Positions 6,328 through 24,639 of a stretch of DNA of 64,000 bases are shown here, piece by piece. The position numbers and the translations under genes were made by a program. The stretch is from Rosistilla carotiformis (GTDB lineage: Bacteria; Planctomycetota; Planctomycetia; Pirellulales; Pirellulaceae). Location: positions 2,356,001 through 2,420,000 of the forward strand of contig NZ_CP036348.1 in assembly GCF_007753095.1 (NCBI RefSeq). The letters run 5' to 3'. The notes below the pieces were generated by a model. That model searched no databases. It had not been told where the DNA came from and saw nothing but the letters and a program-made list of their open reading frames with translations. Each line of letters begins with the position of its first letter. The stretch's first letter is position 1.

Positions 6328-6468
6328 TCGTTTCGGCGGTCGCCACAACGCAGGGCGTCCGCCGTGATTCGAACTCTGTATCCGTTGTTTAATCATTGAG
6401 ACTTCATTCCGTCGTCCATTTCGCCATCGATCGATCCTGACGGCGCACCAAGCCCTTAAAAAACTGAC

Positions 6469-8418
6469 ATGTCGCACCAATCAGACCTCATTTCGACAGA
6501 CATCAACGCCTACTTGAAGCAGCACGAGCAGAAGCAACTGCTCCGTTTCATCACCTGCGGTAGCGTCGACGATGGCAAAAGCACGCTGATCGGGCGGCTG
6601 TTGTTCGATTCGAAGATGCTCTACGAAGACGAATTGGCCAAGATGGAAGCCGATTCGAAAACCCAAGGTGCTGCCGGCGGAGAGTTTGATCCGGCCCTGG
6701 CGACCGACGGTTTGAAGGAGGAGCGGGAGCAGGGGATCACGATCGACGTCGCCTACCGCTACTTCAGCACCGCGCGGCGGAAGTTCATCATCGCCGACAC
6801 TCCCGGCCACGAACAATACACTCGGAACATGGCGACCGGTGCCAGTTCGGCCGACCTGGCGGTGATCCTGATCGACGCCCGCCACGGCGTGATGACGCAG
6901 ACCAAACGGCACAGCTTTATCGTTTCGCTGCTGGGAATCCGGCACGTTGTCGTCGCGATCAACAAGATGGATCTGGTCGATTTCAGCGAAGAGAAATACA
7001 ACGAGATCTGCGCCGATTACAAATCGTTTGCCGTCCGCTTGGACCTGCCCGATCTGCACTTCATCCCGCTGTCGGCTCTCAACGGCGACAACGTCGTCGA
7101 ACCGAGCCCGAACACGCCGTGGTATCGCGGCAGCACGCTGATGAATTTCCTGGAGTCGGTCTACATCGGATCGGACCGCAACCTGCAGGATTTCCGCTTC
7201 CCCGTGCAATGGGTCAATCGCCCCAACCTCGACTTCCGCGGCTTCTGCGGCACGATCGCGTCGGGCATCATCCGCCAAGGGGATGAGGTCATGATCATGC
7301 CAAGTCGCAAGACGACGAAGGTCAAGGAGATTGTGACCCATGACGGCAACTTGGAAGAGGCGTTTGCATCGCAATCGGTCACACTGACCTTGGCCGACGA
7401 AGTCGATTGCAGCCGCGGCGACATGATCGTCCGTCCGGGGAACGTGCCGCAATCCGCCGACGCGATCGAAGCGATTCTGGTTTGGATGAGCGCCAGCCCG
7501 ATGGTCCCCGGCAAGACGTACGTCGTTAAACACGCGACGCAATCGGTCACCGGAGCGATCGAAACGCTGCGTTATCAAATCGATGTGAACACCGTCCACC
7601 GAACGCTTTCGCCGCAGTTGAACCTGAACGAAATCGGCCGCTGCCGATTGTCGCTGAACGAATCGATCTGCTTCGACGCCTATCGCAACAACCGAGCGAC
7701 CGGTGCCTTGATCCTGATCGATCGCTTGACCAACGAAACCGTTGCCGCGGGCATGATCCTCGACCGCAGCTCCAGCGGTAAGAGCCAAGCGATCTGGGAA
7801 GAAGACCTCGCTGAATCGACGGGCGAAGAGGATAGCAGCGGCCAGTTGAGCCAAGTCAGCTCCGAGGAACGCGAAGCCCGTTACGGCCAAAAGCCGGCGA
7901 CGGTCTTGCTGACCGGCCTGACATGCAGCGGCAAAACGACGATCGCTCGCGCCGTCGAACGTCGACTGTTCGATTCGGGCCGTTCGGTCTCGGTCCTCGA
8001 TGGCCAACAGGTTCGTCGCGGATTGAGCAAAGACCTCGGATACAGCTTCGAAGATCGCAGCGAAAACCTTCGCCGCGCCGCCTACTCGGCTCACCTTGTG
8101 AACGATTCGGGGCTGATCTGCATCGCATCGTTTGTCGCCCCCAACGCTTCGGTCCGCGACAAGGTGGCCAGCGTGATCGGCAAGGAACGCTTCTTGACGA
8201 TCCACGTTGACGCACCGATCGACGTCTGTCGTTCGCGCGACACCACCGGACAATACGCCGACGCCGATGCGGGCAAGCTGCAGGATTTCCCAGGCGTCAG
8301 CGCTCCTTATGAAGCTCCCGAAGCTGCCGACCTGACGCTGAACACCGATACGCAAAGTATCGATGCCTGCGTCGACGCGGTGATCGATCTGCTGAAGCAA
8401 CGCGGCTTCATCCGCTAA
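6469..8418 (+). CDS. cysN: CysN/CysC fusion: ATP sulfurylase GTPase plus APS kinase
   Basis: A bifunctional 649-residue enzyme. The N-terminal part (about 20-450) is the EF-Tu-like CysN GTPase: GSVDDGKST (G1), [17 protein letters not shown] (G3) and NKMD (G4); it drives APS formation by CysD. The C-terminal part (about 470-645) is the CysC kinase that phosphorylates APS to PAPS, with P-loop GLTCSGKTT, the [20 protein letters not shown] block, and [11 protein letters not shown]. In the FISP segment of classical CysC, where serine becomes phosphorylated, this protein has FVAP (Ala557). In E. coli that serine is known to be phosphorylated; whether the change matters here is unknown. It forms a sulfate-activation unit with upstream cysD. 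Confidence 0.95.
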
Positions 8419-8722
8419 CACTCCTGCGGTATCCGAACATCTGATGCAAAGGCCTCGATCATCGAGGCCCTCGGGGCTGGCTGTTACAATTTCAGCCTCT
8501 CTTCAAATGCTGGCATCTGCTGCCACGCGATGGTTGAATCCGCGGCCGATCGATCGGCCGCGCAGTATACGAGCCAAAATTCCCGAAAAGTCCTACATAA
8601 ACAGGCCGCTAGCAGGCTGGATGTGTATTGACCCCTGGGTTCGAAATATCGGATGATCCCGTCGCTTCCAGGAAACTTGAGCAATTCGCTCGATTTTCTT
8701 CGGAATCGTTGGGAGTCATCCG
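8419..8722. other. Intergenic region between cysNC and the BBP7 gene
   Basis: About 300 bases. It contains a palindromic hairpin just after cysNC (8451-8469) and otherwise nothing recognised. A GGTTCGAAA string near 8638 looks like a tRNA T-loop in isolation, but no acceptor or anticodon stems can be drawn around it. Confidence 0.5.
8451..8469 (+). terminator. Hairpin after cysNC
   Basis: GGCCTCGAT-C-ATCGAGGCC is a perfect palindrome 33 bases after the cysNC stop codon. It could end the cysD-cysNC transcript, but it is not followed by a T tract, so it may instead be a protein-binding site. Confidence 0.4.
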
Positions 8723-10291
8723 TTGTTCGCTCGCGTTGTTATTCTGATCGCTTTATGCTGCGTCCCCGCTGCGTCGCTTGTCGTTGGACAAGAGACAGCC
8801 GGTCCGTCGTGGCGTTTTCGCTTTCCCGAATCCAACGGTGCCGAGACGTCGAGCCAATCGCAAACCGATCGCGTCGATGTCGCTTCGCTCCCACCGAAGC
8901 CCGCGTACAAAAAGCCGTCGCGGATCCAAGTCCCCTCGCTGGCCGATTCTCAGATCGTGATCCCCAGTGAAGCGTCGAGTCCATCGGACAATCGAGATTT
9001 GGCGGACCGAAATTTCGAAGACGAACTGCAAGAGAACGAAGCGGCGGAGCGGATTGCCGATGCGCGATTGGCGGCCAATGGCGACCAGGATCCGTATGCC
9101 ATCCTGCCGACGGCGTTTCGAAATCAGATCACCAACTTTGGCGGAACGTTTAGCACCTGGTTACCCTTCCGCCGCACCGGCCGCTTTTGGGTCAACCCCG
9201 ACTATTTATATTGGTCCGCCGAAGGGATGCGCACTCCCGCCCTGGTCACCTCCAGCCCTTCGGGGACGCCGCAAAACGAAGCCGCCTTTTTGGGCGGCAC
9301 CGGAACGACGGTGCTGTTTGGCCAGCAAGAACTCAACGACGGTTGGCAGAGTGGTTATCGAATCACCGCCGGCTTTGCCTTGGATCCCAACTTGCGATGG
9401 CAACTGGAAGGGGATTACTTAAAGATCTTCGACCGCAACGAATCCTTTTCGGCCGCATCGGACGATCAAGTCGCGCCGACCAACATCATCGGCCGGCCGT
9501 TCTTCGATCTAATCAACGGTCGCGAAACCGCTCAATTGATCTCCTACGAAAACCTCGTCTCCGGCCGGATCAGCGTCGATGCGGAATCGAAGCTGAGCTC
9601 GTTTGGACTCTACGGTCGCGGGGCGACTTGCCCAACGCCGGGGCCCTGCGACGTGATCGCGATCAACAGTCCGCTGAGCATGCAGATCGGTCGGTTCGAC
9701 GTCTTGTTTGGATATCGATATGCCAACCTGCGAGACAGCCTCTCGTTTTCTGAAGACCTGCGCAGTCTGGACGTTGCCAATCCGGGATCGTTCCAGATTC
9801 GGGAGAGCTTCCAAACGAAAAACGAATTCAACGGCATCGAGCTGGGCATGGCTTATCACGGCCGCTGGAATCGATTTACGACCGAACTGGTCGCCAAAGT
9901 CGCCGCGGGTAACAACAAACAAACCGTCCAGATCGATGGCTACAGCGACATCGTCGAGGCCGGTTTTCTGGAACGCTTCCCCGGCGGCGTGTTGGCCCAG
10001 CGGACGAACATCGGCGAACATAAACGGAACGAATTGGCCGTCCTGCCTCAGCTGACCTTCAATCTCGGCGCTCGCGTGACTCCCTACGTCACCCTTCGCG
10101 TCGGATATTCGTTGTTCTATCTGAGCAACGTTGTGCGGGCCGGAGACCAGATCGATACCGATCTGAACCCGAACCTGTTCCCGCCAGAACAAATGCCGCT
10201 GGTCACATCGGTCCTGCGTCCGGAATTTGAATTCCGCGAGACCGATTTCTGGGCCCACGGTGCCAATTTTGGTGCCGACTTCCGGTTCTAG
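8723..10291 (+). CDS. BBP7-family outer-membrane beta-barrel protein
   Basis: A planctomycete-enriched outer-membrane protein family of unknown cargo. The TTG start at 8723 is supported by GGGAG seven bases upstream and gives a signal peptide (FARVVILIALCCVPAASLVVGQ). Residues 20-140 are low-complexity and polar. From about 145 the family signature appears: FWVNPDYLYWSAEGMRTPALVTSSP, GYRITAGFALDP, then alternating amphipathic strands to a terminal FGADFRF with the C-terminal aromatic residue typical of barrels inserted by BAM. The 522-residue length fits the family. It appears monocistronic. Function (porin, receptor or structural) cannot be told from sequence. Confidence 0.82.
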   Translation: MFARVVILIALCCVPAASLVVGQETAGPSWRFRFPESNGAETSSQSQTDRVDVASLPPKPAYKKPSRIQVPSLADSQIVIPSEASSPSDNRDLADRNFEDELQENEAAERIADARLAANGDQDPYAILPTAFRNQITNFGGTFSTWLPFRRTGRFWVNPDYLYWSAEGMRTPALVTSSPSGTPQNEAAFLGGTGTTVLFGQQELNDGWQSGYRITAGFALDPNLRWQLEGDYLKIFDRNESFSAASDDQVAPTNIIGRPFFDLINGRETAQLISYENLVSGRISVDAESKLSSFGLYGRGATCPTPGPCDVIAINSPLSMQIGRFDVLFGYRYANLRDSLSFSEDLRSLDVANPGSFQIRESFQTKNEFNGIELGMAYHGRWNRFTTELVAKVAAGNNKQTVQIDGYSDIVEAGFLERFPGGVLAQRTNIGEHKRNELAVLPQLTFNLGARVTPYVTLRVGYSLFYLSNVVRAGDQIDTDLNPNLFPPEQMPLVTSVLRPEFEFRETDFWAHGANFGADFRF

Positions 10292-10441
10292 TTGCCATTA
10301 GGGGAACTCTATCCTTCGCGCAATTGCTGATGGCGCCAACGTGAAATGCTCGCAGGATCGAAATCACAATCCGAAATCGCTTCGATCGCAGGATAGTTCA
10401 ATCTTACCGCCTTCTGTATGGAATACCGCGCACCACGGCTT

Positions 10442-10828
10442 TTACGCGAAACTCTTCAGCGTCAAGGGTTGCAAGATGAAGGGTTGCAAGATGAGTGAAA
10501 CCAAGCGGGCTACGAATGGTTGAACGGCTTCCGTGATTCTTCGACAGATGGCTTTCGATAGGTGCCACTTGAACAGATCGTCCGATGCCGTGCAATCGAC
10601 GATCTCGACGGTGCCGATGGCAAGTCCTTTATCGAGTTCGCTCCACGGCTTACCGATCAGTTTCTCAATTTCCGCGTCGGTTGCATCCAGTCTCCCTTTG
10701 GCGGCGTAGGTATAGATGCTCCCGCGTATCTTGGTTGGATTGGACCGATACCCCTCTGGCTTATCGTCTCGGAAAATCGTCTTCGTCCACGGTTGCCGGA
10801 GGCTCAGCGCTTTCAGTTTTCTATGCAT
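10442..10828 (-). CDS. Small ASCH-domain protein with altered C-terminus
   Basis: The first roughly 80 residues fit the ASCH fold (RNA-binding, PUA-like): KALSLRQPWTKTIF, EGYRSNPTKIRGSIYTYA and GLAIGTVEIVDC. ASCH proteins of this type usually continue with a WHL...P-rich tail; here the tail becomes SLILQPFILQPLTLKSFA, produced by a 15-base tandem repeat at 10464-10493, so the end may be frameshifted or degraded. The ATG at 10828 was chosen because the preceding frame to 10984 has no family similarity. The gene stands alone between the BBP7 gene and the FHA-ABC exporter. It could be a pseudogene of an integrated ASCH protein; biological role unknown. Confidence 0.55.
   Translation of the reverse strand: MHRKLKALSLRQPWTKTIFRDDKPEGYRSNPTKIRGSIYTYAAKGRLDATDAEIEKLIGKPWSELDKGLAIGTVEIVDCTASDDLFKWHLSKAICRRITEAVQPFVARLVSLILQPFILQPLTLKSFA
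10464..10493. repeat. 15-bp tandem repeat, two copies
   Basis: AAGGGTTGCAAGATG occurs twice without a gap (10464-10478 and 10479-10493). It falls in the 3' end of the ASCH gene and writes the repetitive QPF/QPL residues of its tail. Confidence 0.9.
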
Positions 10829-11044
10829 GCATACATGCACTCGTGATTTCGCTTGCGGATCCACAATACCAATACGCCGAATCCAGGCCGCTACCCTGAA
10901 GGGGCGGGGTAGATCAGACGACGTCCATTGAAGGTCGTGGAGATGGGATTGCTCAGTTCCCGCTATCGGGCAAAGCCTAAGCACCCACAGGTATGCTCCG
11001 TCCCGTCTTCACTTGGCGACGGACGGTCGACCAACGCTACGGAA

Positions 11045-13351
11045 TCAGCCGGTTGTTGCGCGACGCGTTCCGATCCATGCGATGGTCAGAAAGACCATCG
11101 CATGCACAAAAATTACGACATACGTCGTGAATTGAGCGGGTTCGAAATCCGAAGCAATCCTTTCCGACGTTTGAAGACAGCCCTCGACAGCCTTCTGTCC
11201 CCAGAACACCGTTGTCGTCGCCTTGGCGATCCAGAGTGGCAACACGGAAAGTGAGGCCACAACGCCACCCAAGATAATTTGTGGAATCACAACGACGGGC
11301 ACGATCGCAATTGCGGTCTCTTCGGATTTAGCGGATGCCGAGATCGCCTGCCCCAATAAGGATCCGGTAACCGATAGCAAGCAAAGGGTGCCGAGCATCG
11401 CGAGATTGTCGCCGGGGGGATCAAACCAAGCGAGTGTGATTGCGCCCAGTAAAACAGATTGGGCAAATGACAGCCCCGCAAAGAACAAGACCTTCGCCCC
11501 CAGGTACGCTTCGAGATTCAGATTGAAATTGCGTTCGCGATGATAGATCATCCGCTCCTGGACTAATTCCTTGACACTCGAATTACATCCTAGCCAAAAG
11601 CAACTCACGCTAAGCAGAAACAGCAGGTTGCGCGTAGTTGCCAACCGCTCGGGGACCAGTTTTTCGCTTAGATCCGCAAACTGACCAAAGACTAAACACA
11701 GCAGCAGGCCGACCAATAACGGCTGTCCGATCAACGTCGCAACCGCGGGAAGGTCCGCGCGCCAAATTGCAGCGGTGCGTCGAAAGATGGTCGCAAACTG
11801 ACGCAACCCAATCGATACCGATGCGCGGTAGGTATATTGTCCGGTGCGTAATTCGGAGTCTCGTTTTTGTAATGCCGGTTTGCGGTCAACGACATAGCGA
11901 CGAAAATATTGGCTGGTCAAGAACCGCGATTCCCACGCTTCGGCTTTTCGTTTCCCGAGCGCCGGATAGATGTCCGCCAACCGGCTCACCTTGAAATACT
12001 CGATCGCTTCGGCCGGAGAACCAAAAAACGCCAAGTGCCCACCTACTGTCAGAACAAGAATCAAATCGCAGTGATCGCTGACATGCGCCAGGTTGTGTGT
12101 GACACAGACCAGCGTCTTCCCGCTGGCCGCGAGGCGCTCGAACAACTGCATCATCTCCTGGTCGGCCTGTTCGTCCAATCCCGATGTCACTTCATCGAGA
12201 AACAGCAAGCTGGGGTCAGAAATGAGTTCGGTGCCGAGTCCGACGCGTTTGAGTTGCCCGCCGCTGAGTTGCGATATCCGAACATCGCGACGTGTCTCTA
12301 AGCCTACGGTTTGCAGGATTGCATTGACCGCTTGTTTTAGCTCGCTCTGCTGCAGGTCCGGTGGCAACCGCAACGCTGCTGTAAATAGTAGTGTCTGTTC
12401 GACGGTCAGTGTTTCATGCAGTGTTAACGCCTGGGGGATCACACAGAGATCCGTTTTGATCGCTCCAAAATTTTGGTGCAGATCGCGTCCGTTTACATAC
12501 GTACGGCCTGCGGTCGGTTCGCCACGACCGCTCAACAGACGCAATAGCGTCGATTTTCCCGACCCGCTGGGGCCCACGATACATGCGAATTCGCCTGGAT
12601 TGAGTACCAAGTCGATGTTGTTCAGTAAGCGTAAGGGTTCGCTGCGACCGCCTCCACGAATCTCAAGCCCCACTCGCTCGGCCACCAATTGAACATTGTT
12701 TTTACGAGAGCGACTGACGAACCGCTGGGCACGTAGTTCCAGCGAAAACGGGCCAATGTCGATCACGTCGCCATCGTTCAACAGGCATCTCGACGCGATC
12801 TGTTTCCCATTCACGAAGGTCCCGTTGGCACTTCCAACATCTTCGATCCAAATCTGTTGCCCTGAACGAGCCAATTGCGCATGAGCCCGCGACACGTGAG
12901 GGTGGTCGAGGCAGAAAACTGCCACTTCGGGATTGCGCCCGATTAGCCCTCCCTCAGCAGCGTCGAAGGTCTCCAACGGGTGAAGCTGTTGAAGAATTTT
13001 GGGGACTTGTGCAGCTAAAAGCGTTCCGGCTGGCGTCGAGTCGGATTCCGAAAAGCTGACGACTTGAATCATCGGTCCGGTGTAGCCCAATCGAATCGTA
13101 TCGCCACTCTTTACCCGCTGCATCGATTCGACCGGCGCTCCGTTGATCAGTGTCTGGTTCGATCGACTGTGATGAATCAATCGCCAGCCATCGTCATCGA
13201 ACTTCAGTTCTGCGTGGATCGACGAGACCTTGGGGTAACGTGCGCTGTCGAACTGCACTTCGCACTCTTTAGCTCTCCCTAAACAAACGTTCTGCTCTCG
13301 AAAATCGAAGACTTGCACCGATCCATCTTCGTGTTGGATATGCAACCTCAT
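11045..13351 (-). CDS. FHA-FHA-ABC transporter, ATPase fused to permease
   Basis: A half-transporter of the ABCG-like type preceded by two phosphothreonine-binding FHA domains; 768 residues. FHA1 is about 1-95 (LGRAKECEVQF...VSSIHAEL), FHA2 about 125-215 (IGRNPE, VSRAHAQL, SANGTFVNG). The ATPase (about 240-455) has Walker A GPSGSGKST, signature LSGGQLKRVGLG and Walker B LLFLDEVTSGLD. From about 530 there are six membrane segments of the ABC-2 type. The ATG overlaps the stop of the upstream double-FHA gene (ATGA at 13348-13351), indicating translational coupling. It is the last gene of the kinase/lectin operon. FHA domains suggest control by Thr phosphorylation, plausibly by the operon's kinases. 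Exported substrate unknown; such proteins must dimerise. Confidence 0.9.
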   Translation of the reverse strand: MRLHIQHEDGSVQVFDFREQNVCLGRAKECEVQFDSARYPKVSSIHAELKFDDDGWRLIHHSRSNQTLINGAPVESMQRVKSGDTIRLGYTGPMIQVVSFSESDSTPAGTLLAAQVPKILQQLHPLETFDAAEGGLIGRNPEVAVFCLDHPHVSRAHAQLARSGQQIWIEDVGSANGTFVNGKQIASRCLLNDGDVIDIGPFSLELRAQRFVSRSRKNNVQLVAERVGLEIRGGGRSEPLRLLNNIDLVLNPGEFACIVGPSGSGKSTLLRLLSGRGEPTAGRTYVNGRDLHQNFGAIKTDLCVIPQALTLHETLTVEQTLLFTAALRLPPDLQQSELKQAVNAILQTVGLETRRDVRISQLSGGQLKRVGLGTELISDPSLLFLDEVTSGLDEQADQEMMQLFERLAASGKTLVCVTHNLAHVSDHCDLILVLTVGGHLAFFGSPAEAIEYFKVSRLADIYPALGKRKAEAWESRFLTSQYFRRYVVDRKPALQKRDSELRTGQYTYRASVSIGLRQFATIFRRTAAIWRADLPAVATLIGQPLLVGLLLCLVFGQFADLSEKLVPERLATTRNLLFLLSVSCFWLGCNSSVKELVQERMIYHRERNFNLNLEAYLGAKVLFFAGLSFAQSVLLGAITLAWFDPPGDNLAMLGTLCLLSVTGSLLGQAISASAKSEETAIAIVPVVVIPQIILGGVVASLSVLPLWIAKATTTVFWGQKAVEGCLQTSERIASDFEPAQFTTYVVIFVHAMVFLTIAWIGTRRATTG

Positions 13352-14181
13352 GATCGACTTCCGAATTTCAAGCGGAAGCGTTGCTCGCCGATACGAAACT
13401 CGCAAGACTTGCCGACGTTCACGACGATTTGAGGCACGCGAAGCCAAATTCCGTTAATCGTGTTTGCGCCTTCGATCACCCAGGTGCCACGCTCGCTGCG
13501 CGACAACACGGCATGCACGGTGCGGGTGTAGGGATCGCGGGGACGCTGGATTTCACAATGTTCGCCGCGACCGATCACATACCGCGACCGATCAAGCATC
13601 GTCCGCGTCTCGGCACGGCCGGCAATGATCTCCGAAAGGATCACGGCTCCCGGTACATGTTGCCCCTCCAACGCCTTGGTCGATGCCGGCAATAATTCCT
13701 CGGGCCCCGCCAAGGCCACCGTTTCCGGCACATCGTCCCGCACGATGTCCATTTTATAGTGGCCACCGCCAATCAGCACTTCCGCTTGGTGCATCAATGG
13801 TGCTTTGGTGACGCGAACAAACAATCCATTGCGACTTTGTAGATCGGTCGCGCACAAGCGAACCTGGCCTGCGACCGATTGACGGTGCAGCGCCACGTGC
13901 CGCGACGAAATCATTTCGTCATGCGATATCTGCAAATCCCCTTCGGTGCGACCGATCGTGAATCGGTCGCTGCGAATCCGAATCAATTCGCCCGAATCCT
14001 TGCCATCATCACAAACGACCAACATCACAACAGGCGGACGCGCCGTGGGACGGAACAATTTTTCGTCGTCGGAACTGCGTTTCTTGCCAGATCCTTGAGC
14101 CTGGTGACGAAGTTCGGCCTGCACACGCTGCACTTCTTCGTCAGACTCAAGTTGCGTTGGGGGTGGGACGTCGTCGTTCAT
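13348..14181 (-). CDS. Double FHA-domain protein
   Basis: A 277-residue soluble protein with two forkhead-associated modules, which bind phosphothreonine peptides. The first (about 75-145) has FTIGRTEGDLQI, ISSRHVAL and LQSRNGLFVRV; the second (about 200-265) has YVIGRGEHCEI, TVHAVL and TINGIWLRV. The first 50 residues are charged and probably disordered, with a QGSGKKRSSDDEK segment. The frame is open to 14400, but the ATG at 14181 has AGG just upstream and avoids a long overlap with the kinase gene. It ends in a 4-base overlap with the FHA-ABC exporter. An adaptor between phosphorylated kinases and the transporter is a reasonable inference. No enzymatic domain is present. Confidence 0.85.
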   Translation of the reverse strand: MNDDVPPPTQLESDEEVQRVQAELRHQAQGSGKKRSSDDEKLFRPTARPPVVMLVVCDDGKDSGELIRIRSDRFTIGRTEGDLQISHDEMISSRHVALHRQSVAGQVRLCATDLQSRNGLFVRVTKAPLMHQAEVLIGGGHYKMDIVRDDVPETVALAGPEELLPASTKALEGQHVPGAVILSEIIAGRAETRTMLDRSRYVIGRGEHCEIQRPRDPYTRTVHAVLSRSERGTWVIEGANTINGIWLRVPQIVVNVGKSCEFRIGEQRFRLKFGSRS

Positions 14182-14207
14182 GCTGCCTATCGACTGTTGG
14201 ATCTTGA

Positions 14208-17200
14208 CTAATTCAAAAGCGGGAGCTGTTTGATACGGATCGCCCGGAAAGCGATTTCGCCACCGCGTGCTTGCAGTAGAATGTGTCCGCGCTTTAGGAA
14301 TTTGATCTCCATCTGCCCTTGGACGTTGGAATCCGAAAGCAATCTCTGCCACTCTGAAGTCGAGGTATCGTACTCGAGCAATTTTTTTCCGTCGAGCCAA
14401 TGCTCCGCCTTCGGCCCGCTACAAACTATCCGAGTGCTATGCCACACCCCGAGTGAGGTGTTATGGGGCGACTCCGGCGCCGCCACACGCCGAATTGCCC
14501 CTGTCGTTAATTCGGGCTTCATGGCATCTGCGAATCCCGACTCATCAATAATTTGATATTCAGTCCCCGCAGACGTCCGCGTGCTTATTTCCCGATAGTA
14601 GATTCCGCTGTTTGCGCCCGGGCCAATTTTCCATTCGGCAATCAGTTCAAAGTTTTCATATTCATCCTTCGAAATCGCAAATCCCTTTTCATCATTTGCC
14701 ACCAAAGTTCCCTCGCGAACTTTGAAGGGGCCGAGCGATTGCCAAGCACTCGTATCGGTACCATCAAACAGCGATACAAATCCGTCTGGCTTGGGCTGAA
14801 TCGGGGCAACGTCGGCATGTTTTGTTACTGCATCCGTCTTGAATCCGGCAGCGTTCACCTCTTGAGGTTGGCTGCCAAACCATTGGCATATGTAGCCCGG
14901 ATTTTGTTTTTGCAAAGACTCATTTGGCTGATCGACCCAACGACTTTCCAAACTTGGCCCCGACGGGTAGTTAACAATTAGGAGCATGAAGTCTTCACCT
15001 GATCCTAAGTTGTTGGGCTGGTGGGTTCCCCAATTTCGATAACGCAACGAATCGCCGGTGATCCAATTCCAGTCGCCTTCTTTGTGCTCATCGCTTGCGC
15101 CTAGCCAAACAGAGTCTAGTCCTGCCGTTCTCGCCATACCGAAGATGAAGTCATTTTCTGCCCGTGAACTTATAACGGCAAGGTTGCCTCCCATCAGCGA
15201 ACAACGGTTTCTTGCGTCATGCCAACTCAACTTTTCCGGGAATAGCTTGTATCGAGAGCCGTGAAACAAAATTGCATCACTTGGTGGCACTAACTGAGTG
15301 TCTGGCCTAAGGGTGAAGGTTCCTGACGCAGCACCGGGTCCGGACCAACGAAAATCAATTCTTGGACCAGCACCATCCTGTGATATTGTCCCCGTATTAT
15401 CTCCGCCCGCCTTACCAACGATCACGTGAACGTCTTTTGCAAGCCAACTAATTTCGTTGCCTGCAATCTTTCCATGGACTTCACGCCGCAAACCCTGGCC
15501 AGCCGAAACCAAAGCTCGGAACGATTCGCCATTCCGAGACAGGATCGTCAACGATGTGGTCAACGACTCATCGACATTTATCCAAGAGCCCCCTGGACTA
15601 AAAAGATCATCGAACTTGGCTAATACCGTCCCTGAGGATGTGCCTGGGACTTGAGAGTCAGCATTCGATTTCGTCGCCGGAGCTTCCTTGGCCGCTATGT
15701 GTACTGCGGGTGCAACCGAAACAGAGATCATTATCTTGTCGCCTCGGTCGATCGTAACGGTTTCACCAGCAATGCGTGCTCCTCCGGAACGCACTTCGAC
15801 ATGGCGGGTGCCCGGTTTCACGCGGACTGTGGCGGTTTCTTTGCCTTCGTTCCAGCGGAGCCGAATCGATTCTTGATCGACGAAGACTTCTGCATCTGCG
15901 GGCAGGTTTTCGATCACAAGCGTGCCTTCGCCAGTCCGAAGCATGAGTACTCCGGCGAGCAAGATCGCTAGAAAGCTGCCTCCGATCGCGATTGCTAATC
16001 TGGGCGGCAGCTTGAAACGCCCTGCAGCGTTTCGAGGTCGGTTGGCTGCCAGAATCGACTTGGTGAAGCGGCGATCTTCAACTTTTAGGTCTGCGATACT
16101 GGCGGCCACACTTCGCTGTGGAGTTCCCGCCGGAGCGAGCACTGGTGCTATAGTAGGTGATGGTTGTTCGATCGACGTTTCGCGACTGGGCAAGGCAAGA
16201 TCAAAGTGGGTGTCGATCTTGGCGGGATCCAATTGAATATGGGATTTGACGCTGGCTTTGCCGGCGAACGGCTTCAGTGCTTCGGCAACTTGCTTTGGCG
16301 TCGCATAGCGTTCCGACGGATTCTTGGCCATCATCTTGGCGATGATCTCGGAGAGCTCGACAGGAACGTCAAGCCTTGAGAAGCTGATGTAGTCGGCTTC
16401 CTGCTGGGCATGCGCCATCAGAATGCTCTGAAACGTCCCGGCGAAAGGAGGCTTGCCCATCAGCAAGTGATACAGCGTGCATCCAAGACTGTAGATGTCC
16501 GCGCGGATGTCCGCCTTGGCCGCATTCAACGCTTGCTCGGGGGCCATGTATTCGGGCGTTCCTAACATCGTGCCGTCGACGGTCAACCCTTCGGAATCGC
16601 GTTCGCTGCTCGCTTTGGCAAGACCGAAGTCGAGGATCTTGATGCGTAGGTTTCCGTCTTCCTTAAACACCATCACGTTCGAAGGCTTGATGTCGCGGTG
16701 AACTGTCTGTTTCGAATTCGCATGTTGCAAAGCTCCAGCAATCTGAAAGGCTAGCGCACAGGCGACAGGAATCGGAACGGGATGGTACTTGCGAATGAAC
16801 CGATGCAGATCGATTCCTGGAACATACTCCATCGAAAAGACGAGCTGCGTTGGCAGAGGAACCTGCTGGTACGCGGTTGCAATCGCCGGATGATTCAGTT
16901 TTCCGATGGCACGCATTTCGTTACGAAAGCGTTGTTTAGCGGAACCCTTCTTGACCAATTGCTCGCTGAGAACCTTCAGTACTTCAACCCGATCCATCGG
17001 CACATACTTGGCAAGGTAAACAACCCCCATCCCGCCGCGACCAAGTTCCTTTAGCACCTGGTAATCCCGCGAATCAAGCAGTTCTTGAGGAATCCCATCA
17101 GGCTGCACCGCCTCGATCGACTCCGCGGTCTTCTGATCGAAACTTGCATCCGAGCCTGCTGCGCGGCTGGCAACCGCTGCCTGCTTTACCTTTTCTAGAA

Positions 17201-17354
17201 ATCGGTTACTCGAAATCGCCGCAACGCGAGCTTGAAGTTCTAGCGACTTTTCAATCGCCAGCGCCAGCCAGCTTTCTATTTCCGAATCAAGCCGCCCTTC
17301 GGCAAACTGTTTCAGCAGTGCGTCGTCGATTCGCGGTAGCTTCGGAGAGACCAT
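14208..17354 (-). CDS. Membrane Ser/Thr kinase with PEGA, C-type lectin and DUF1080 domains
   Basis: About 1,048 residues. The cytoplasmic part holds a Hanks-type kinase (about 98-370): [16 protein letters not shown] lysine, [24 protein letters not shown], so it should be active and of the RD class. One membrane helix follows (about 490-510, [20 protein letters not shown]), then a PEGA domain ([19 protein letters not shown]). The extracytoplasmic part has a C-type lectin-like domain (about 750-880: [41 protein letters not shown]) and a C-terminal DUF1080 domain ([17 protein letters not shown]...NSGIYYRE), a concanavalin-like fold seen in sugar-acting proteins. Start: ATG 17354 was preferred to upstream codons by comparison with the paralogue at 19120-22866. 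Ligand unknown, likely a glycan. Confidence 0.88.
16576..16730. repeat. 155-bp DNA identical to 22058-22212
   Basis: By base-by-base comparison, this stretch, which encodes the [20 protein letters not shown] core of the kinase, is identical to 22058-22212 in the paralogous kinase gene, and similarity stays high for several hundred bases around it. The outer parts of the two genes differ far more. Confidence 0.9.
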
Positions 17355-17461
17355 CAGTTCGTTCCAGAGTAATATAAAATTCCGATCCGATGGAAAGGTG
17401 GCGTGCATGACAACGCTGTTGCGAAATCCGCAAACTTCCGTCTTTGAACGGCCGGTTGCAG

Positions 17462-19027
17462 CTATTTCGCATACAATCGCGGGTAGCACCAGAAACTTTG
17501 GTCGTCTTTGGAGTTACCCATGTCGTTAACCTTTAATTCGATGGATTTTGTGCCAGATGGCAGTTGCACGTCGATTGGAACAACGCCCGCTTGCGGAGTC
17601 TGGAGCAGTGGTTTTCCATCGGCCCACACTTCATAACGCACGGAACAACTGACGACGTTGTATCCGACAGCCGTGAACCGCGTCATGCCGTCGGGGACCG
17701 CATAGGTCACCGTGGAGGGCGCATGAGCAAACAAATACTCGTCGCAAATTGGCGCGTCGCGATAGTGAATTGGGGGCGCCCAGATGGACTTGTTGTAGGT
17801 GATCCTGTTCGCCCCAACTTCCGCAGAGAAGATATTCAATTTTCTTGAAGGCGAATCGAGCTTGTCCTCCGTGATGCGATCCGCTGAGAAACGATGGAAG
17901 CGAGGGTAGCACCAATAGGTGTGGTCGTAAATGTGATCGCCAAGCGGATCGACTGCAAGTTCAAGAATCTTTGAATTTGCGGGAAGATCCAATTTGATGA
18001 TGTCTAAACCCGTCATGCCGGAATCGTAGAGCGCGACACCATCAACAACGACGGAAAATTTGGAGGATCGCAAGCCTTGGTTCACCCCAATGACAGAGAA
18101 ACTCTTCATCGACCTCGGAATTGCACACTTCACTCGCGAGGGAGCATGAACGGTGTAGTAGTCATCGCAAAAGCGAAACTTTTCTGCGACACGAGGCACA
18201 CGACGTTCTGCAACATGCCCACCCACTTTGAACGCTTGGTTGACAAAAAAATTTCCCCAACCAACCTTCGGTAGTCCGGCGGTTTCGCCGACTAAGCGAA
18301 CGAAACCCGAGTGGAGGTCTTGGTTCTTGTCAGCGACCGTGATGAAGTCGGGTGTCACGATGCCTGTCTTCATTTTGATGCGAACCTTGTGAAATACCGT
18401 ACGACTGTCCCAAGCTCCAATCCAGGGATGACGCATCATGTCGAACCGACCTTCCAGTGAATTGAGCTTCCCCCGCCACTGGATGTAATTTTCCTCGCCG
18501 TTGTGGTCGATGCGAAACGTCGCCTCATCGGCTTTGGTCGCGACATTGATGGTGGTGCGATTGCGGTAACCATTGCGTACTGCAGACGGGGATTTTCTCG
18601 TTGCGTTCTCCGTATATCCCTTGCCATCAATGCTTGCCACTCCTCCATACCGTCCGGTGAAAGCACTGAAAACCAGATCCATGGTGTGCGAACCGACTGG
18701 AAAGCCTATGTGGACTGATTCGGTTCCAGTTTCGCGCGTCCATTCGACTTCCATCTCATAATCGCCGTCGACAATTGCCGGCAGCGGATAGTAATTCCAC
18801 TGTACCGGCCTTATCGTTACGCCGTTACGCGAAGGCTGGCTTTCGAGTCGTTCGTTGTAATTGCGACCTCGCGACGCCCAGTCGGCGTTCTCGGACCATT
18901 CCAGCAGATTTACCCACTGTTGGGGAGGTTGAGCTTTCCCTTCTCCAACGCAAACGCTCACAATGAAACATAGTGCGAGATGTTGTGCATGCCACTTCGC
19001 TGCAGTTCGTGAATTGATGGGACCCAA
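17462..19027 (-). CDS. Secreted protein with two NPCBM carbohydrate-binding modules
   Basis: Roughly 520 residues. A likely signal peptide (HAQHLALCFIVSVCVGEGKAQ) is followed by a beta-sandwich-like N-terminal region (about 35-210; WNYYPLP...DYEMEVEWTRETGTESVHIGFP) resembling a LamG/concanavalin fold, and by two NPCBM domains (about 225-370 and 385-515). The NPCBM repeats share F(C/V)..YLF/YYTVHAPS.V.YA(V/I)P, a galactose-mutarotase-like binding module in glycoside hydrolases; no catalytic domain is present. The TTG at 19027 has AGGAG nine bases upstream and starts just ahead of the signal peptide; an upstream TTG at 19066 is the alternative. It sits between the two kinase genes and may present or compete for the same glycan. 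Confidence 0.75.
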   Translation of the reverse strand: MGPINSRTAAKWHAQHLALCFIVSVCVGEGKAQPPQQWVNLLEWSENADWASRGRNYNERLESQPSRNGVTIRPVQWNYYPLPAIVDGDYEMEVEWTRETGTESVHIGFPVGSHTMDLVFSAFTGRYGGVASIDGKGYTENATRKSPSAVRNGYRNRTTINVATKADEATFRIDHNGEENYIQWRGKLNSLEGRFDMMRHPWIGAWDSRTVFHKVRIKMKTGIVTPDFITVADKNQDLHSGFVRLVGETAGLPKVGWGNFFVNQAFKVGGHVAERRVPRVAEKFRFCDDYYTVHAPSRVKCAIPRSMKSFSVIGVNQGLRSSKFSVVVDGVALYDSGMTGLDIIKLDLPANSKILELAVDPLGDHIYDHTYWCYPRFHRFSADRITEDKLDSPSRKLNIFSAEVGANRITYNKSIWAPPIHYRDAPICDEYLFAHAPSTVTYAVPDGMTRFTAVGYNVVSCSVRYEVWADGKPLLQTPQAGVVPIDVQLPSGTKSIELKVNDMGNSKDDQSFWCYPRLYAK

Positions 19028-19119
19028 AATACGATGCTCCTGTCGATTTTTTTCCAAAGCGATCAAACTTCATCTCGTCGACCGGCGGTCTTGCGATGCG
19101 TGTGGATATAAACATTCAA

Positions 19120-22100
19120 CTAAGGCCATGCAATCTTGCCGACCCCTTGTGTTCCAGGCCTGCCACTGAAGTTCCCAGTAAAAGCAAACGTAATGACACC
19201 GTCGATGAAAACGCCACTAGCCTCATATACGGTTGTTCCGTTCGTCTCCGTCCATTGAATCGTATTCCCTTCAATCAGTCCTTCGACGGTTGCCATGTTG
19301 GTTCTTTCACGCTGATCGTATTTGTACCCTTCGAACGTTTTGCCCGAACGTTTGTTGATGTGAAGGCTATAGGAAACCGTTTTGCCCTCCCAGAAGCCTT
19401 CAATATAAGATCTAGTTCCGTGCAATATGGAGCCTTCCTCCAGGTCGATGAGTTCAGCGGGCTCATGTTTTAATTCCCGGATCCTTACGTCGCGGAATGC
19501 AATCTCACCTGAATTGGATTGCAACAAAATATGACCTTGGTTGCGGATTCCGATCTGTTGCTTCTGCGCTTCGGATAATCTGTTGGATTCCAGTAGCTTT
19601 AACCACTGTTCGCCTTCCGTCGAATAGAAGGCGGTTGGCCTGCCGTTGAGCCAATGCTGCACCTCCGACCGTCGGCAAACGATGCGAGAAGTGTTCCATT
19701 GGCCCACGCGTGTTTTAAGGTCGGTCGATGCTGGTACGACACCGTACAGGCTTCCAGTTTTCTTGTCCTCGGGAACTTCCATGCCATCGAAGATGTCGTC
19801 ACTAATAGCATACTCGTTTCCAAATTTAACTAGACGCGTTGCGGGCTCTCGATAATAGATGCCACTGTTCGCTCCAGTTCCGATTTTCCAATCCGCGACT
19901 AGTTCAAAGTCTCCATATTCCTTTCTTGAAATGGCGTTTCCGCGTTTTCCATTTCCAATAAGCAATCCGTCTCTAAATTCGAACGGTCCAAGTTCCTGCC
20001 ACGCGTCGGTGTCGGAACCGTCAAACAGTGAAACAAAACCGTCTGGTTTGGTTTGCAAGATGATGTCCTTAAACCTAACCTCCATTGGTACCCATCCATG
20101 CAACTGAAGGCCTATCGATCCCTTGGAGCGGAAGTTCGTCAAGTCCTCATCGGTCACTTGACTCATTAGCCATCCATTAATCCAGTGCGTCATCGTACGG
20201 CCCTTAGCGACGACTCGATAGTGATTCCAAGCGTCCGGTTTAACAACCTGTGAAAGGGCCTCAGCATCCTGTCGCGTTTTCTCAATCCGTGCGTTGCCGT
20301 CAGGATTGATTACGACCTTGTTTGCAACGCTGGCAAGGATCCCACGTCCTTCGGCTTCATAGTTGCTTCCGGATGCTTTTCGCTGGAGGTTGACATCGAT
20401 TTGGTAACCGAGCGCTATCGGATTCTGGTCCGTTTGTATTGCTCGGTAGATTACGCCAGAGTTCCCGCCGCTTGAAACCTTGCAGTCGAAGGCTAGTTCA
20501 AAATCTCCACTAGTTTGAACGTCGGAGAACAAATAGATTCTGTTTTGTGTGAGGGTGTCAGCACTGCATCTTCCAACGATGCAGCCTGATTCCACCGACC
20601 AGAATCTCTCGTCTCCTTTCCAGCCTGTTAAATCGACGCCGTTAAACAACGCTGAACCTGTAGCAGCGGCATCCTGACGTGCCGCTTTCAACTGGATGTC
20701 AGGGATGATCTTGATCCAGCAAATCCCTATGAAACCATAGATAGCATTGCTTTTGTCAACGATTTCAAGCGTCACGTTCTCACCGCGTAGCGAGGACAGG
20801 TCCCACTCAACATCGAACCCCTGGGTTGAGTTTTTTCCGGTAACGCGATTCACGGAAACTTGGTTGTGTAAAAGAGCGATCCAAAGGGTGTCCTGGTTTC
20901 TTCCGCCATGGACGTTAAATGATAACGCCTCGGCATACATCGGAACACGGAAGGTCTGGAACATTCGGCCTTTGTTGTGGTCCTTTTGGGTTCCAAATGT
21001 CGTTAGTCCTGGCTGCCCATCGTGAGTGAAATTGCGGAACCCAGTCGCGCCCCCTTCAAGGGTCCAGCCGTTCAAGCCATCGGAAAAGTCACCGTTGATG
21101 ATCCCTTCTACGGAGGGGCTACTATCGATGGGGACCGGAGCTGGTGAAGGCGTCGTTTTCAAGGAGGCGTGGGATTCGGGCTCGATGTCATTCGTCAATG
21201 ATACAACAATTAGTTTGTTTTCATTACTCTCAATGGAAACCGTTTCGCCCGCGATACGGTTTCCGCCAGAACGCACTTCGACATGACGGGTGCCTGGTTT
21301 CACGCGGACGGTGGCAACGTCTTTGCCTTTGTTCCAACTGAGCCGTATCGATTCTTGATCGACTAATACCTCTGAATCTTCGGGCGCGTTTTCTATTACG
21401 ATTGTGCCTTCGCCAGTTCGAAACATAAACACAGTCGCGAGCAATGCCGCTAGAAAGCTTCCACCGATCGCGATTCCTAATTTGGGTGGCGGCTTGAATC
21501 TCCCTGCCGCGCTTCGATGGCGTTTGGCTGACGGAATCGACTTGGTGAAGCGTCGATCTACAACCTTTAGATCGGAAATGCTGGCGGCCACACTTCGCTG
21601 TGAATTTCCCGCCGTTGCGAGTACGGGGTCTATCGTGGAGGCTGGTTGTTCGGTCGACGTATCGCGACTGGGCGAGGCAAAATCAAAGTGGGTGTCAATC
21701 TTCGCGGGCTCTAACCGCGTCTGGGATTTGATGCTGGCTTTGCCAGCGAACGGCTTCAGTGCTTCGGCAACTTGGTTTGGCGTTGCGTATCGTTTCGACG
21801 GATTCTTGGCCATCATCGTGGCGATGATTTCGGAGAGCTCTACAGGTACATCAAGTCGAGTAAAGCTGATGTACTCAGCCTCCTGCTGGGCGTGCGACAT
21901 CAGGATGCTCTGGAAGTTTCCTACGAAAGGAGGTTTGCCCATCAGCAAGTGATACAGCGTGCAGCCAAGACTGTAGATGTCCGCGCGGATGTCCGCGCCG
22001 GCGGCATTCAACGCTTGCTCGGGGGCCATGTATTCGGGCGTTCCCAACATCGTGCCATCGACGGTCAACCCTTCGGAATCGCGTTCGCTGCTCGCTTTGG

Positions 22101-22866
22101 CAAGACCGAAGTCGAGGATCTTGATGCGTAGGTTTCCGTCTTCCTTAAACACCATCACGTTCGAAGGCTTGATGTCGCGGTGAACTGTCTGTTTCGAATT
22201 CGCATGTTGCAATGCTTCAGCGATCTGAAAGGCTAATGCACACGCGACAGGGATCGGGACGGGATGGTACTTGCGAATGAACCGATGCAGATCGATGCCC
22301 GGAACATATTCCATCGAAAAGACGAGCTGCGTTGGCAGAGGAACCTGCTGGTACGCGGTTGCAATCGCCGGATGATTCAGTTTTCCGATGGCACGCATTT
22401 CGTTGCGAAAACGCTGTTTGGCGACGTCCTTCTTGACCAATTGTTCGCTGAGAACTTTTAATACTTCAACCCGATCCATCGGCACATATTTGGCCAGATA
22501 AACAACCCCCATACCGCCACGACCAAGTTCCTTGAAAATCTGGTAGTCTGTGCACTGAGCTAGTTCGATTGGCAGGCCGGCTGGTGGGGCGTTTGAATAC
22601 GATTTGGACACGCGTTTTTCGCCAACGCAGGGATCACCTTGAGTTGCGCAGGGGGCTGCAGTCTTGGCGGCTTCTACACGCTTTAGAAATCCAGCTCCGG
22701 CTATCGTTACAATATGAGCCTGGAGTGCTGGATTGCACTCAATCATCGCAGCAACGCGCAGCTCCGTCGCCGAATCAAGCCGCCCATTGACGAACTCGTT
22801 CAGCAACGCTTCGTTGACGATTGCTGCTTGGGAACGAGAACGTTGGCTTGGAGAGTTACCCGACAT
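19120..22866 (-). CDS. Membrane Ser/Thr kinase with PEGA and tandem DUF1080 domains
   Basis: A 1,248-residue paralogue of the kinase at 14208-17354 and the first gene of the operon. Kinase about 108-375 ([37 protein letters not shown]), membrane helix about 480-500, PEGA domain about 505-575. Outside: a jelly-roll-like module (about 590-700, [16 protein letters not shown]), two DUF1080 domains (about 745-945 [15 protein letters not shown]...NSGVIYRA and 955-1135 [17 protein letters not shown]...NSGIYYRE) and a C-terminal 95-residue beta-rich domain ([17 protein letters not shown]). The ATG at 22866 has a strong AGGAGGG four bases upstream. Lacks the C-type lectin domain of its paralogue, so the two kinases probably read different extracellular ligands through similar catalytic cores. 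Confidence 0.9.
22058..22212. repeat. 155-bp DNA identical to 16576-16730
   Basis: Second copy of the identical kinase-core segment, in the same orientation and reading frame as the first. The offset between copies is 5,482 bases throughout, with no insertion or deletion inside the identical run. Confidence 0.9.
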
Positions 22867-23346
22867 TGGCCCTCCTGTGGTTGATTTGTGTTATCCCATG
22901 TTAGCGTAAGCGTGGGCGGCGAACCATAGGTGACTGCTAAATCTGGAAGACAATTGATTCGTGTCTCGGGTCATGGAAAAATGGTGTGTTTGCGGTCAAT
23001 TCTTGGCGTTTCTCGAGATTCTCTCGCCGTCGACGAAGTGACCGGCTCTAAGGGGCGCCAGCTGTAGTGAGCTGCGCTACACGCACCTTGGGATCTCTGG
23101 TTTTCGCGTCACACGGCGTCTCGCTATTCACTGCAGGGGCACTAGCGTTTGGCGAAAACCTGCGTGAGCTAAAGTTGGTGCATGTCGAACGCAACGTAGG
23201 ATTACATCAAAAAGTTAGCCAGAACTCGTGTCCGGCGATTACGACTCGCTTGGCTTTGAGTTCAGGTCACCCCGCATCCAAGTTGAGATCACGTTACGTG
23301 GCTTCGCGGACGGAATTGTTTTGCACTTATCCGGCTGTTCGGCAGA
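22867..23346. other. Region upstream of the kinase operon
   Basis: About 480 bases separate the operon's first start codon from the stop of the next minus-strand gene. It should contain the operon promoter, but I could not identify one with confidence, nor any gene or clear repeat. Confidence 0.5.
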
Positions 23347-24639
23347 TCAGGTTTCCTGGGCGAAGAAGAGCAGTGGATAGACGTGCGATTGACCGTCGGT
23401 CTTGGCGACTGCCGGCTGGTCTTTATCGCGCGGCGCGGGCAAAACCGCGGCTTCGATCCAGCGGCGGTCTTTGTTGAGGATTTGGTTCCGCAAGACTCGG
23501 GCAAATTCGGGACTGATCCCCGTCTCTGGTGTCCCAAAGATCTCGTCGCCGATCTCGCGGACCAACGGTTCCAGCCGTTCGTTGGCCAATTGCATCGCCG
23601 CTTGCGCTCGATCGGTGCTCCAGTTTCGAGACCAGACCTGCCGTAACGCTTGATTCTCCACGATTGCGTCGCGAACGATCGAACCGGCCAATGCCTGCAA
23701 TTGCGCGTCGCTGGCGACCTCTTGCAAAACCAGGGTGACCTCTTTGCGAACCGCTTCGTTTTTAACGACGTCTCGCAAAATGTCCTTCACGGCAGTGACA
23801 ATGGCGTCGACGTGCGATTCAAAGACTGGAATCGCCTCCTGTTCCATAAAACGCTCCCATTCGCGTTGGCTGAGGTCGCGTTGCGGGAGCGGCGATTTGT
23901 CGTACATGATCCGCCAACCAAACCGAAACAGCGACGCACGGTCCCAGATCTCTTGGCCGATCTCGGTGGCCACCGGTTCGCCATGGGCTCGGACGATTGG
24001 TAGCAATTCACTGCGGACCAGCGGTACAACGCGGTCGTTGATCAATTCCGCTTCGAAACGTTTGCCGATCGCATCGATCTCCGCTTGGTGGGCGCGAACC
24101 GCTTGAACAAGCGCTTGTTCGATCACGGGGACGCTTTCCCGCAGCGTCTGTTCGATCACCGGTTTGAACGCTTCGGTCAGTTCGGGGCCGTGCAGCCGTT
24201 GCGCTGCGGCGATCCTATTTAAAATGGCCGTTCGGCGATCGGACGGCAGCAAGATCTCCACCGCTTCGGCTAGGGTGCCGCGATTGCGACAATAGATGAA
24301 TTCGTAATGCGATGCCGGCTGCGGGCCGTACCACTGGATGACCGCCGTCGGCTGGGGGTCTGATTCGGCGCTGGAGGTTGCATGGCCGACCTGACTCCAC
24401 TGGCCACTCGCGTCGACAGCAAATACGGCGTCGCCATGCCGCAGCGGTCCGTTGGGCAATTGAATCGGAAAGGATTCACTGCGACGAAAGAGGTGCGTCG
24501 CGATTTCGGTTACGCGGGACGCTTCGGCGGCGCGACTTCGCGCGGCGATCGCGATCGCCACCAGGCATCCGATCCAAAATAGGACTCCCAACAGCGTCGT
24601 CAGTTTCCAGCGGAGCTGCGGCCAATCGGAAGAGGACAT
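23347..24639 (-). CDS. Membrane-anchored protein of unknown function
   Basis: 430 residues with a single N-terminal membrane helix (LTTLLGVLFWIGCLVAIAIA) and a large extracytoplasmic part. Residues about 60-130 form a beta-rich module (RHGDAVFAVDASGQWSQVGHA); the rest is strongly helical with repeating EQ/EIG..I patterns (EAFKPVIEQTLRESVPVIEQALVQAVRAH), like proteins that span the periplasm as a coiled rod. Such proteins are typical hypothetical planctomycete genes; I recognise no catalytic domain. The ATG at 24639 is chosen because the upstream 33 codons are not conserved-looking and the membrane helix follows directly. Divergent from tolC-like 25014. MCE or AprE-like adaptor functions were considered but lack their signature sequences. 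Confidence 0.7.
   Translation of the reverse strand: MSSSDWPQLRWKLTTLLGVLFWIGCLVAIAIAARSRAAEASRVTEIATHLFRRSESFPIQLPNGPLRHGDAVFAVDASGQWSQVGHATSSAESDPQPTAVIQWYGPQPASHYEFIYCRNRGTLAEAVEILLPSDRRTAILNRIAAAQRLHGPELTEAFKPVIEQTLRESVPVIEQALVQAVRAHQAEIDAIGKRFEAELINDRVVPLVRSELLPIVRAHGEPVATEIGQEIWDRASLFRFGWRIMYDKSPLPQRDLSQREWERFMEQEAIPVFESHVDAIVTAVKDILRDVVKNEAVRKEVTLVLQEVASDAQLQALAGSIVRDAIVENQALRQVWSRNWSTDRAQAAMQLANERLEPLVREIGDEIFGTPETGISPEFARVLRNQILNKDRRWIEAAVLPAPRDKDQPAVAKTDGQSHVYPLLFFAQET

Follow-up and report, generated by a model that had tools for sequence, protein, structure and literature searches.

We analysed a window of 64,000 nucleotides from Rosistilla carotiformis (NZ_CP036348.1, positions 2,356,001 to 2,420,000, forward strand; positions below are those of this whole window). 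Between positions 11045 and 22866, five minus-strand genes encode two membrane Ser/Thr kinases, a protein with NPCBM domains, a protein with two FHA domains and an exporter in which two FHA domains are fused to an ATP-binding cassette (ABC) transporter. We found that the second kinase, the double-FHA protein and the exporter form a conserved core, and that the double-FHA protein belongs to a larger family that often lies next to kinase genes.

Five genes on the minus strand

All five genes are open frames in a program-made frame list, and they have the domains that an earlier note on this DNA had described. The mechanically called longest frames, each on the minus strand, and their Pfam matches are 22866–19120 (Pkinase and two stretches of 3-keto-disaccharide hydrolase, the former DUF1080), 19066–17462 (two NPCBM stretches), 17489–14208 (Pkinase, C-type lectin and DUF1080), 14400–13348 (two FHA stretches) and 13447–11045 (two FHA, followed by ABC_tran and then ABC2_membrane in one protein). 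For three genes the longest frames are too long, and better starts are the ATG codons at 17354 (kinase2), 14181 (double-FHA protein) and 13351 (ABC gene). The start of the NPCBM gene is uncertain because its frame opens with a TTG at 19066 and the first Met is residue 105. The genes are thus:

19120–22866, minus strand: kinase1, 1248 amino acids; an N-terminal region, a Ser/Thr kinase domain, a single membrane span (by eye) and an ectodomain with two 3-keto-disaccharide-hydrolase (DUF1080) domains and additional sequence (Pfam, translation)
17462–19066, minus strand: NPCBM protein, 534 amino acids, two NPCBM stretches; start codon uncertain (TTG) (Pfam)
14208–17354, minus strand: kinase2, 1048 amino acids; a Ser/Thr kinase domain, a single membrane span (by eye), and one C-type lectin and one DUF1080 domain (Pfam, alignment)
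13348–14181, minus strand: putative double-FHA adaptor, 277 amino acids (Pfam, sequence reading, alignments)
14107–14181, minus strand: adaptor residues 1–25 with the conserved Thr9 peptide T-Q-L-E-S-D-E-E, a candidate phosphothreonine docking site; Thr9 codon at 14157–14155 (alignments)
11045–13351, minus strand: FHA-FHA-ABC exporter, a half-transporter of 768 amino acids with the ABC domain ahead of the membrane domain (Pfam, translation)

The lectin and DUF1080 ectodomains that had been claimed for the two kinases were confirmed by Pfam, and their membrane spans were read by eye. Both translations contain the VLK, HRD and DFG motifs and the activation-loop Thr; in the alignment, the kinase motifs of kinase1 are complete. 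The exporter has an intact Walker A, LSGGQ signature and Walker B, whose columns are conserved in the alignment, and with its ABC2 membrane domain it shows the ABCG-like order. It gave 582 matches to solved structures, the best 60 of which all align best in the ABC region; for the adaptor, the comparison with solved structures gave no match at E 0.01. The NPCBM protein is probably exported, judging by a hydrophobic N-terminus that was read by eye. Calling the lectin, DUF1080 and NPCBM parts glycan-binding is a guess based on their families.

After start correction, the gaps between the genes are 53, 107, 26 and -4 bases. The 4-base overlap of the FHA and ABC genes is thus real (ATGA; exporter ATG at 13351, end of the adaptor gene at 13348), and kinase2 stands in the same closely spaced row as the exporter with one gene in between. 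Spacing and conservation suggest an operon, whereas simple scans were at chance level, with two promoter-like sites, neither of them on the strand of the genes (7.9 expected), and 16 terminator-like sites (16.1 expected).

A conserved core of kinase, adaptor and exporter

We searched for the exporter in 60 relatives and in 319 genomes of the order with a completeness of at least 90%. It shows a patchy distribution: an FHA-ABC profile (E <= 1e-60) matched in 48 of the 319 genomes, from 29 of 132 genera, although some of these matches are confined to the ABC part. The core of kinase2, double-FHA adaptor and FHA-FHA-ABC exporter was found in three genomes from two genera, with the 4-base overlap between adaptor and exporter kept in all three. 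In the sister species (G001) the three genes stand in the same order, with 80% identity for the exporter and 85% for the adaptor, and kinase2 is the kinase whose counterpart is conserved there. In a genome of another genus of the same family (G110, locus L083), the order is kinase, extracytoplasmic function (ECF) sigma factor, adaptor and exporter, with 53% (adaptor) and 49% (exporter) identity to the window. Neither core has kinase1 or the NPCBM gene beside it, and the five-gene order was found in the genome of the window only, among the FHA-ABC loci examined.

The earlier note had proposed a conserved linkage of all five families and had named poor conservation of gene order as evidence against it. 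From the gene contents of the sister species, of a further species of the genus (G002) and of G110, we conclude that the order is poorly conserved for the five-gene set, as kinase1 and the NPCBM gene drop out, whereas the linkage of kinase, adaptor and exporter is conserved.

In G110 we also noticed that the adaptor looked as if it had gained an N-terminal module of a kinase; the likeness was seen by eye and the idea was dropped, since BLAST gave no alignment and Pfam no family.

FHA-ABC exporters lie near kinase genes

To survey FHA-ABC genes, 39 loci were used, of which 37 yielded a frame with FHA and ABC domains (L046 and L094 yielded none; L049, a weak match, was left out). As a control we used 22 ABC genes without FHA from 20 loci that were hand-picked from ABC matches, mostly in other genomes. 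Genes were called as longest frames, so that some neighbours are possibly mis-called. Of the FHA-ABC genes, 13/37 have a kinase at most one gene away, 16/37 at most two and 21/37 at most three, compared to 0/22, 0/22 and 1/22 for the control (one-sided Fisher test: 0.0009 within one gene, 0.0001 within two). Counted by genus, the figures are 10/25 within one gene and 12/25 within two. The orientation of the kinase varies, and upstream, downstream and divergent kinases were all seen. These counts support a linkage of kinase and FHA exporter genes beyond the window.

In one FHA-ABC relative (L047 15301–17364, G003), the Walker A region lacks the usual GxxGxGK(S/T), and its ATPase may therefore be dead.

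A family of putative double-FHA adaptors with different possible outputs

A profile built from four adaptors matched in 64 of 396 genomes of the order, at 75 listed places, and in a thinner draw from the phylum it matched in 8 of 392 genomes, including four that belong to the class but not to the order. From the 75 places, 45 loci were hand-picked for score and spread and gave 43 adaptors, as L171 and L173 yielded no adaptor; some of the genomes are close relatives of each other. The window adaptor has the features of this family, namely a profile match at E <= 1e-25 (the profile was partly built from it), an intact FHA1 and a tail of the form T-x-hydrophobic-E/D.

Of the adaptors, 22/43 have a kinase gene at most one gene away and 26/43 at most two, and in 15/43 it stands directly upstream on the same strand. 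Among the adaptors that had not been found via FHA-ABC genes, 20/38 have a kinase within one gene; at the control loci, two of 277 genes are kinases. An FHA protein follows directly downstream on the same strand in 20/43 cases: 11 of these match a trypsin-like model, which was derived from three outputs and extended in one round on the same loci, and another three are ABC exporters. In 11/43 adaptors, a kinase directly upstream is combined with an FHA protein directly downstream. A family outside the order that was fetched later repeats this arrangement, with the FHA protein downstream of five out of five adaptors from four genomes and a kinase directly upstream of four. These neighbourhoods mark the double-FHA protein as a widespread putative adaptor.

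Pfam support for the trypsin-like part is modest: among 10 downstream FHA proteins that were scanned, four match Trypsin_2 with E <= 0.001 and one with 0.0025, and two of these matches exceed the curated cut-off. In the sequences inspected, the position of the catalytic His of trypsins is mostly Val or another residue, and these outputs may thus be inactive. The FHA-membrane-trypsin-like proteins at L144 9323–10987, L145 9525–11318, L146 6836–8581 and others, seemingly without the catalytic His, are possible pseudoproteases that could serve as signalling outputs. Another possible output type was seen at L142 10068–13832 (G448): two FHA proteins come after the adaptor there, and one of them has matches to the FlhB family and to CsgG. 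The exporter of the window triad occupies the place that is often held by the trypsin-like protein.

The genome of the window (7.44 Mb, one contig, 29 FHA matches) has a second set at 212.8–216.3 kb, in which an ECF sigma factor, an adaptor and an FHA-FHA protein with a weak trypsin-like match follow each other. This set lies in a second FHA-rich region at about 197.5–216.3 kb of the contig (L172 2533–12411, L186 779–4340), which has the order kinase-FHA, Hsp70, double-FHA, T2SSE with FHA, two T2SSF and then the adaptor set; we presume its T2SSE and T2SSF genes to be tad-like.

A conserved threonine in the adaptor tail

Many of the adaptors have a short peptide in the tail before the first FHA domain, which reads TQLES in the window and the sister species, TELES in G110, and TLLES, TRLET, TRLES, TVAEP, TVLEP or similar elsewhere. 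A strict pattern T-x-[LIVMAFTC]-[ED] is present in 29/43 tails, compared to a mean of 6.9 and a maximum of 15 in tails shuffled 2000 times. It occurs in 21/22 adaptors beside an FHA effector and in 8/21 others (p 6e-5, uncorrected for kinship); the class beside an FHA effector was assigned by hand and includes two divergent exporters (L084, L085). FHA domains read phosphothreonine with a preference at the +3 position, and the tail T-x-[hydrophobic]-[E/D], once phosphorylated, is a plausible candidate ligand. The residue at this position has also been discussed for the binding of Rv2623 to the FHA-ABC exporter Rv1747 (PMC5549992).

That the FHA domains bind phosphothreonine, as the earlier note had put it, agrees with FHA1 of the adaptor, whose residues are kept (G, R and H in 43/43, S in 41/43, N in 40/43), but less well with FHA2, which is complete in fewer than half of the 43 adaptors.

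Two kinases with a near-identical catalytic core and putative sensor modules

The kinase domains of the two window kinases share a stretch that is nearly identical at the DNA level:

21943–22422, minus strand: kinase1 amino acids 149–308, near-identical to kinase2 (third-codon-position comparison)
16461–16940, minus strand: the kinase2 counterpart of this homogenised stretch (offset of 5482 bases; DNA identity, third codon positions)

Third codon positions are 82–100% identical between the two kinases here, whereas either of them is 52–72% identical to the kinase of the sister species. The similarity drops off on both sides of the stretch; the N-terminus of kinase1 is closer to the kinase of the sister species, and the ectodomain of kinase2 is that of the sister's kinase. 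Such a stretch is what gene conversion or recombination between kinase copies would leave; a recent partial duplication could also account for it. Because the cores are almost the same, two sensors would feed one catalytic specificity.

In another family, at locus L138, a single kinase ectodomain carries two DUF1080, one NPCBM and one C-lectin domain, which are the modules that are split in the window over kinase1, the NPCBM protein and kinase2. This fusion is the best support for placing the NPCBM gene on the sensor side. Other cassette kinases have WD40-like or other ectodomains.

The five genes lie in a possibly mobile block

A comparison with the sister genome delimits the following segment:

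10292–23282, no strand assigned: segment of 12,991 bases that is missing from the corresponding site in G001, which has 92 bases instead (genome comparison)

The flanks 6001–10291 and 23283–24613 of the window adjoin in G001 in the same relative orientation, 92 bases apart. The triad of G001 lies at another site, whose two flanks are not neighbours in the genome of the window (G000) or in G002; in G002, the two window flanks likewise stand apart from each other. Operon and sister genes have 73–78% DNA identity, compared to 79–96% for the flanks compared. The triad is thus kept together at non-matching sites, which suggests that it moved or was acquired as a unit. Among the repeats listed (20 of 36 direct and 25 of 43 inverted), none convincingly joins both ends of the block.

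Two further features were seen at the margin of the block. A minus-strand frame of 180 amino acids (10442–10984), inside the block after the exporter, is a putative gene with no Pfam match. In G002 (L110 8573–19042), the last 306 bases of the BBP7 gene (9985–10290 in the window) are repeated about 10 kb downstream, and the repeated gene ends frame ECF sigma, weakly FecR-like and DUF1559 genes. Because the 13-kb insertion of the window begins at the same gene end, the end of the BBP7 gene may be an insertion hotspot.

A proposed phospho-signalling cassette and its alternatives

On balance, we favour the view that the locus encodes a membrane phospho-signalling cassette, with a sensor kinase, a phosphorylatable adaptor and an FHA-tagged exporter as output. 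The periplasmic modules of the two kinases, perhaps with the NPCBM protein as a co-sensor, would detect envelope or carbohydrate ligands, and both kinases would feed the same path via their near-identical core. The active kinase would then phosphorylate the adaptor, most likely at Thr9 in the N-terminal T-Q-L-E peptide. The phosphopeptide could be read by an FHA domain of the exporter, changing transport, or equally well by the adaptor's own FHA domain, toggling the adaptor as in GarA/OdhI. We infer this relay from kinase to adaptor to exporter throughout. More tentatively, we propose that it is one version of a standard cassette with exchangeable ends: kinases with swapped sensors may phosphorylate the double-FHA adaptor at its T-x-hydrophobic-E/D tail, and the adaptor may engage an FHA-tagged membrane output, often an FHA-membrane-trypsin-like protein and here an ABC exporter in its stead, while the operon would move as a unit and gene conversion would keep the kinase cores alike.

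Several observations weigh against this proposal. The exporter cassette is rare, with three co-directional cases and two with adaptor and exporter divergent (L084, L085), and in G002, one of three species sampled from the genus, there is no exporter or adaptor match at the cut-offs used. Adaptor genes adjoin only a minority of the FHA-ABC loci examined, and 16/37 of these loci have no kinase within three genes, although several contigs end nearby; the control genes for this comparison were moreover hand-picked and mostly from other genomes. The tail pattern was defined after the tails had been seen, in rows related by descent, and the excess of a looser T-x-x-[ED] is smaller (31/43, shuffled mean 16.1 and maximum 26). 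A later sample of 12 loci left eight tails (L180, a stretch too short, and L181 had no adaptor frame; L183 and L185 had no usable tail), in which the strict motif occurs in 3/5 effector-linked (4/5 loose, by eye) and 1/3 unlinked cases. FHA2 of the adaptor often lacks the phosphothreonine Arg and Ser (present in 19/43 and 20/43), and the Ser is absent in that of the window. Lastly, other kinases could act on these proteins, as there are dozens per genome: 12 to 55 matches among these relatives (lower bounds in part) and at least 52 in the genome of the window (51 of 75 candidates scored).

Among the alternatives, the kinase might phosphorylate the exporter directly, with the double-FHA protein as a side partner or dimerisation scaffold. 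Rv1747 is a substrate of the kinase PknF in vitro (PMC3908365), the kinase gene at L086 directly precedes an FHA-FHA-ABC gene with no adaptor beside it, and the absence of the adaptor from most FHA-ABC loci fits such direct control as well. We nevertheless regard this as unlikely, since the adaptor gene of the triad overlaps the exporter gene, its tail peptide and FHA1 residues are kept at 53–85% identity, and adaptors accompany kinases also where no exporter adjoins. That the adaptor actually serves an ECF sigma factor or some other machine of the envelope, with the exporter controlled by shared transcription only, seems quite improbable. ECF sigma genes do lie beside the adaptor at L083, L134 and L137 and near it at L138 and L149, the second adaptor of the genome follows such a gene, and control of ECF sigma factors by kinases encoded next to them has precedents (PMC8103513); yet neither the five window genes nor the triad of G001 include a sigma factor, and a contact between the proteins accounts for the FHA domains of both adaptor and output better than shared transcription alone would.

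It is hardly probable that kinase and FHA genes without any relation were brought together by chance in a transposed block. In favour of this, G001 lacks the block at the matching site, and its core is not accompanied by kinase1 and the NPCBM gene. Against it, the triad has stayed together at different sites and also occurs in a second genus, and the linkage of adaptor and kinase is far above the control. Chance is thus largely excluded for the three-gene core, but the NPCBM gene may be a chance neighbour. The interpretation of the earlier note, a suggested path from external glycan via kinase and FHA adaptor to the transporter, is partly supported: the core linkage, the association of kinase and exporter and the FHA1 residues of the adaptor agree with it, whereas a conserved linkage of all five families was not seen.

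Comparison with known systems

To our knowledge, the targets of such sensor kinases are mostly unknown. Planctomycete kinases with DUF1080 outside the membrane have been described and resemble the window kinases in their periplasmic DUF1080 (PMC11032199); the available text of that paper does not contain the terms ABC transporter or operon, and its passages do not mention FHA adaptors or downstream exporters. FHA has been named as a sporadic effector part (PMC7159879). Among open-licence papers, mostly at the level of titles and abstracts, we found no description of a double-FHA adaptor cassette in planctomycetes, and an adaptor cassette with exchangeable outputs may be new. If the proposal holds, a genomic rule that pairs kinase, adaptor, specific Thr and output would yield testable kinase-substrate pairs across many species, and it would show how bacteria rewire Ser/Thr signalling when they exchange sensors and outputs but keep the adaptor.

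GarA and OdhI have one FHA domain and act on metabolic enzymes. These small FHA regulators, which work with PknG, have a phosphorylatable Thr in an N-terminal tail with a conserved ETTS motif, and the idea of a tail Thr is shared with the window adaptor (PMC8546545). The window adaptor lacks the combination of a single FHA domain and an N-terminal ETTS, having instead two FHA domains, T-Q-L-E and a membrane output, but it may still work alike. In type VI secretion, PpkA, Fha and TssL combine a kinase and an FHA protein in the phosphothreonine-dependent activation of an export machine, which in the passages available involves no ABC exporter (PMC3953482).

The closest precedent, which the earlier note does not mention, is PknF-Rv1747 of Mycobacterium tuberculosis, a two-gene operon of a kinase and an FHA-FHA-ABC exporter (PMC3908365), in which phosphorylated Rv2623 binds FHA I of Rv1747 (PMC5549992). 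Control of an exporter by a kinase is thus not new. The two systems are alike in domain layout: both have a membrane Ser/Thr kinase gene in a row with an exporter in which two FHA domains are fused to ABC and membrane domains. As described in these passages, the mycobacterial kinase directly precedes the exporter and the operon has no double-FHA adaptor, whereas the window has two kinases, with lectin, DUF1080 and NPCBM parts nearby. If the proposed relay is right, the window would be one case outside mycobacteria of a transporter controlled by phospho-reading.

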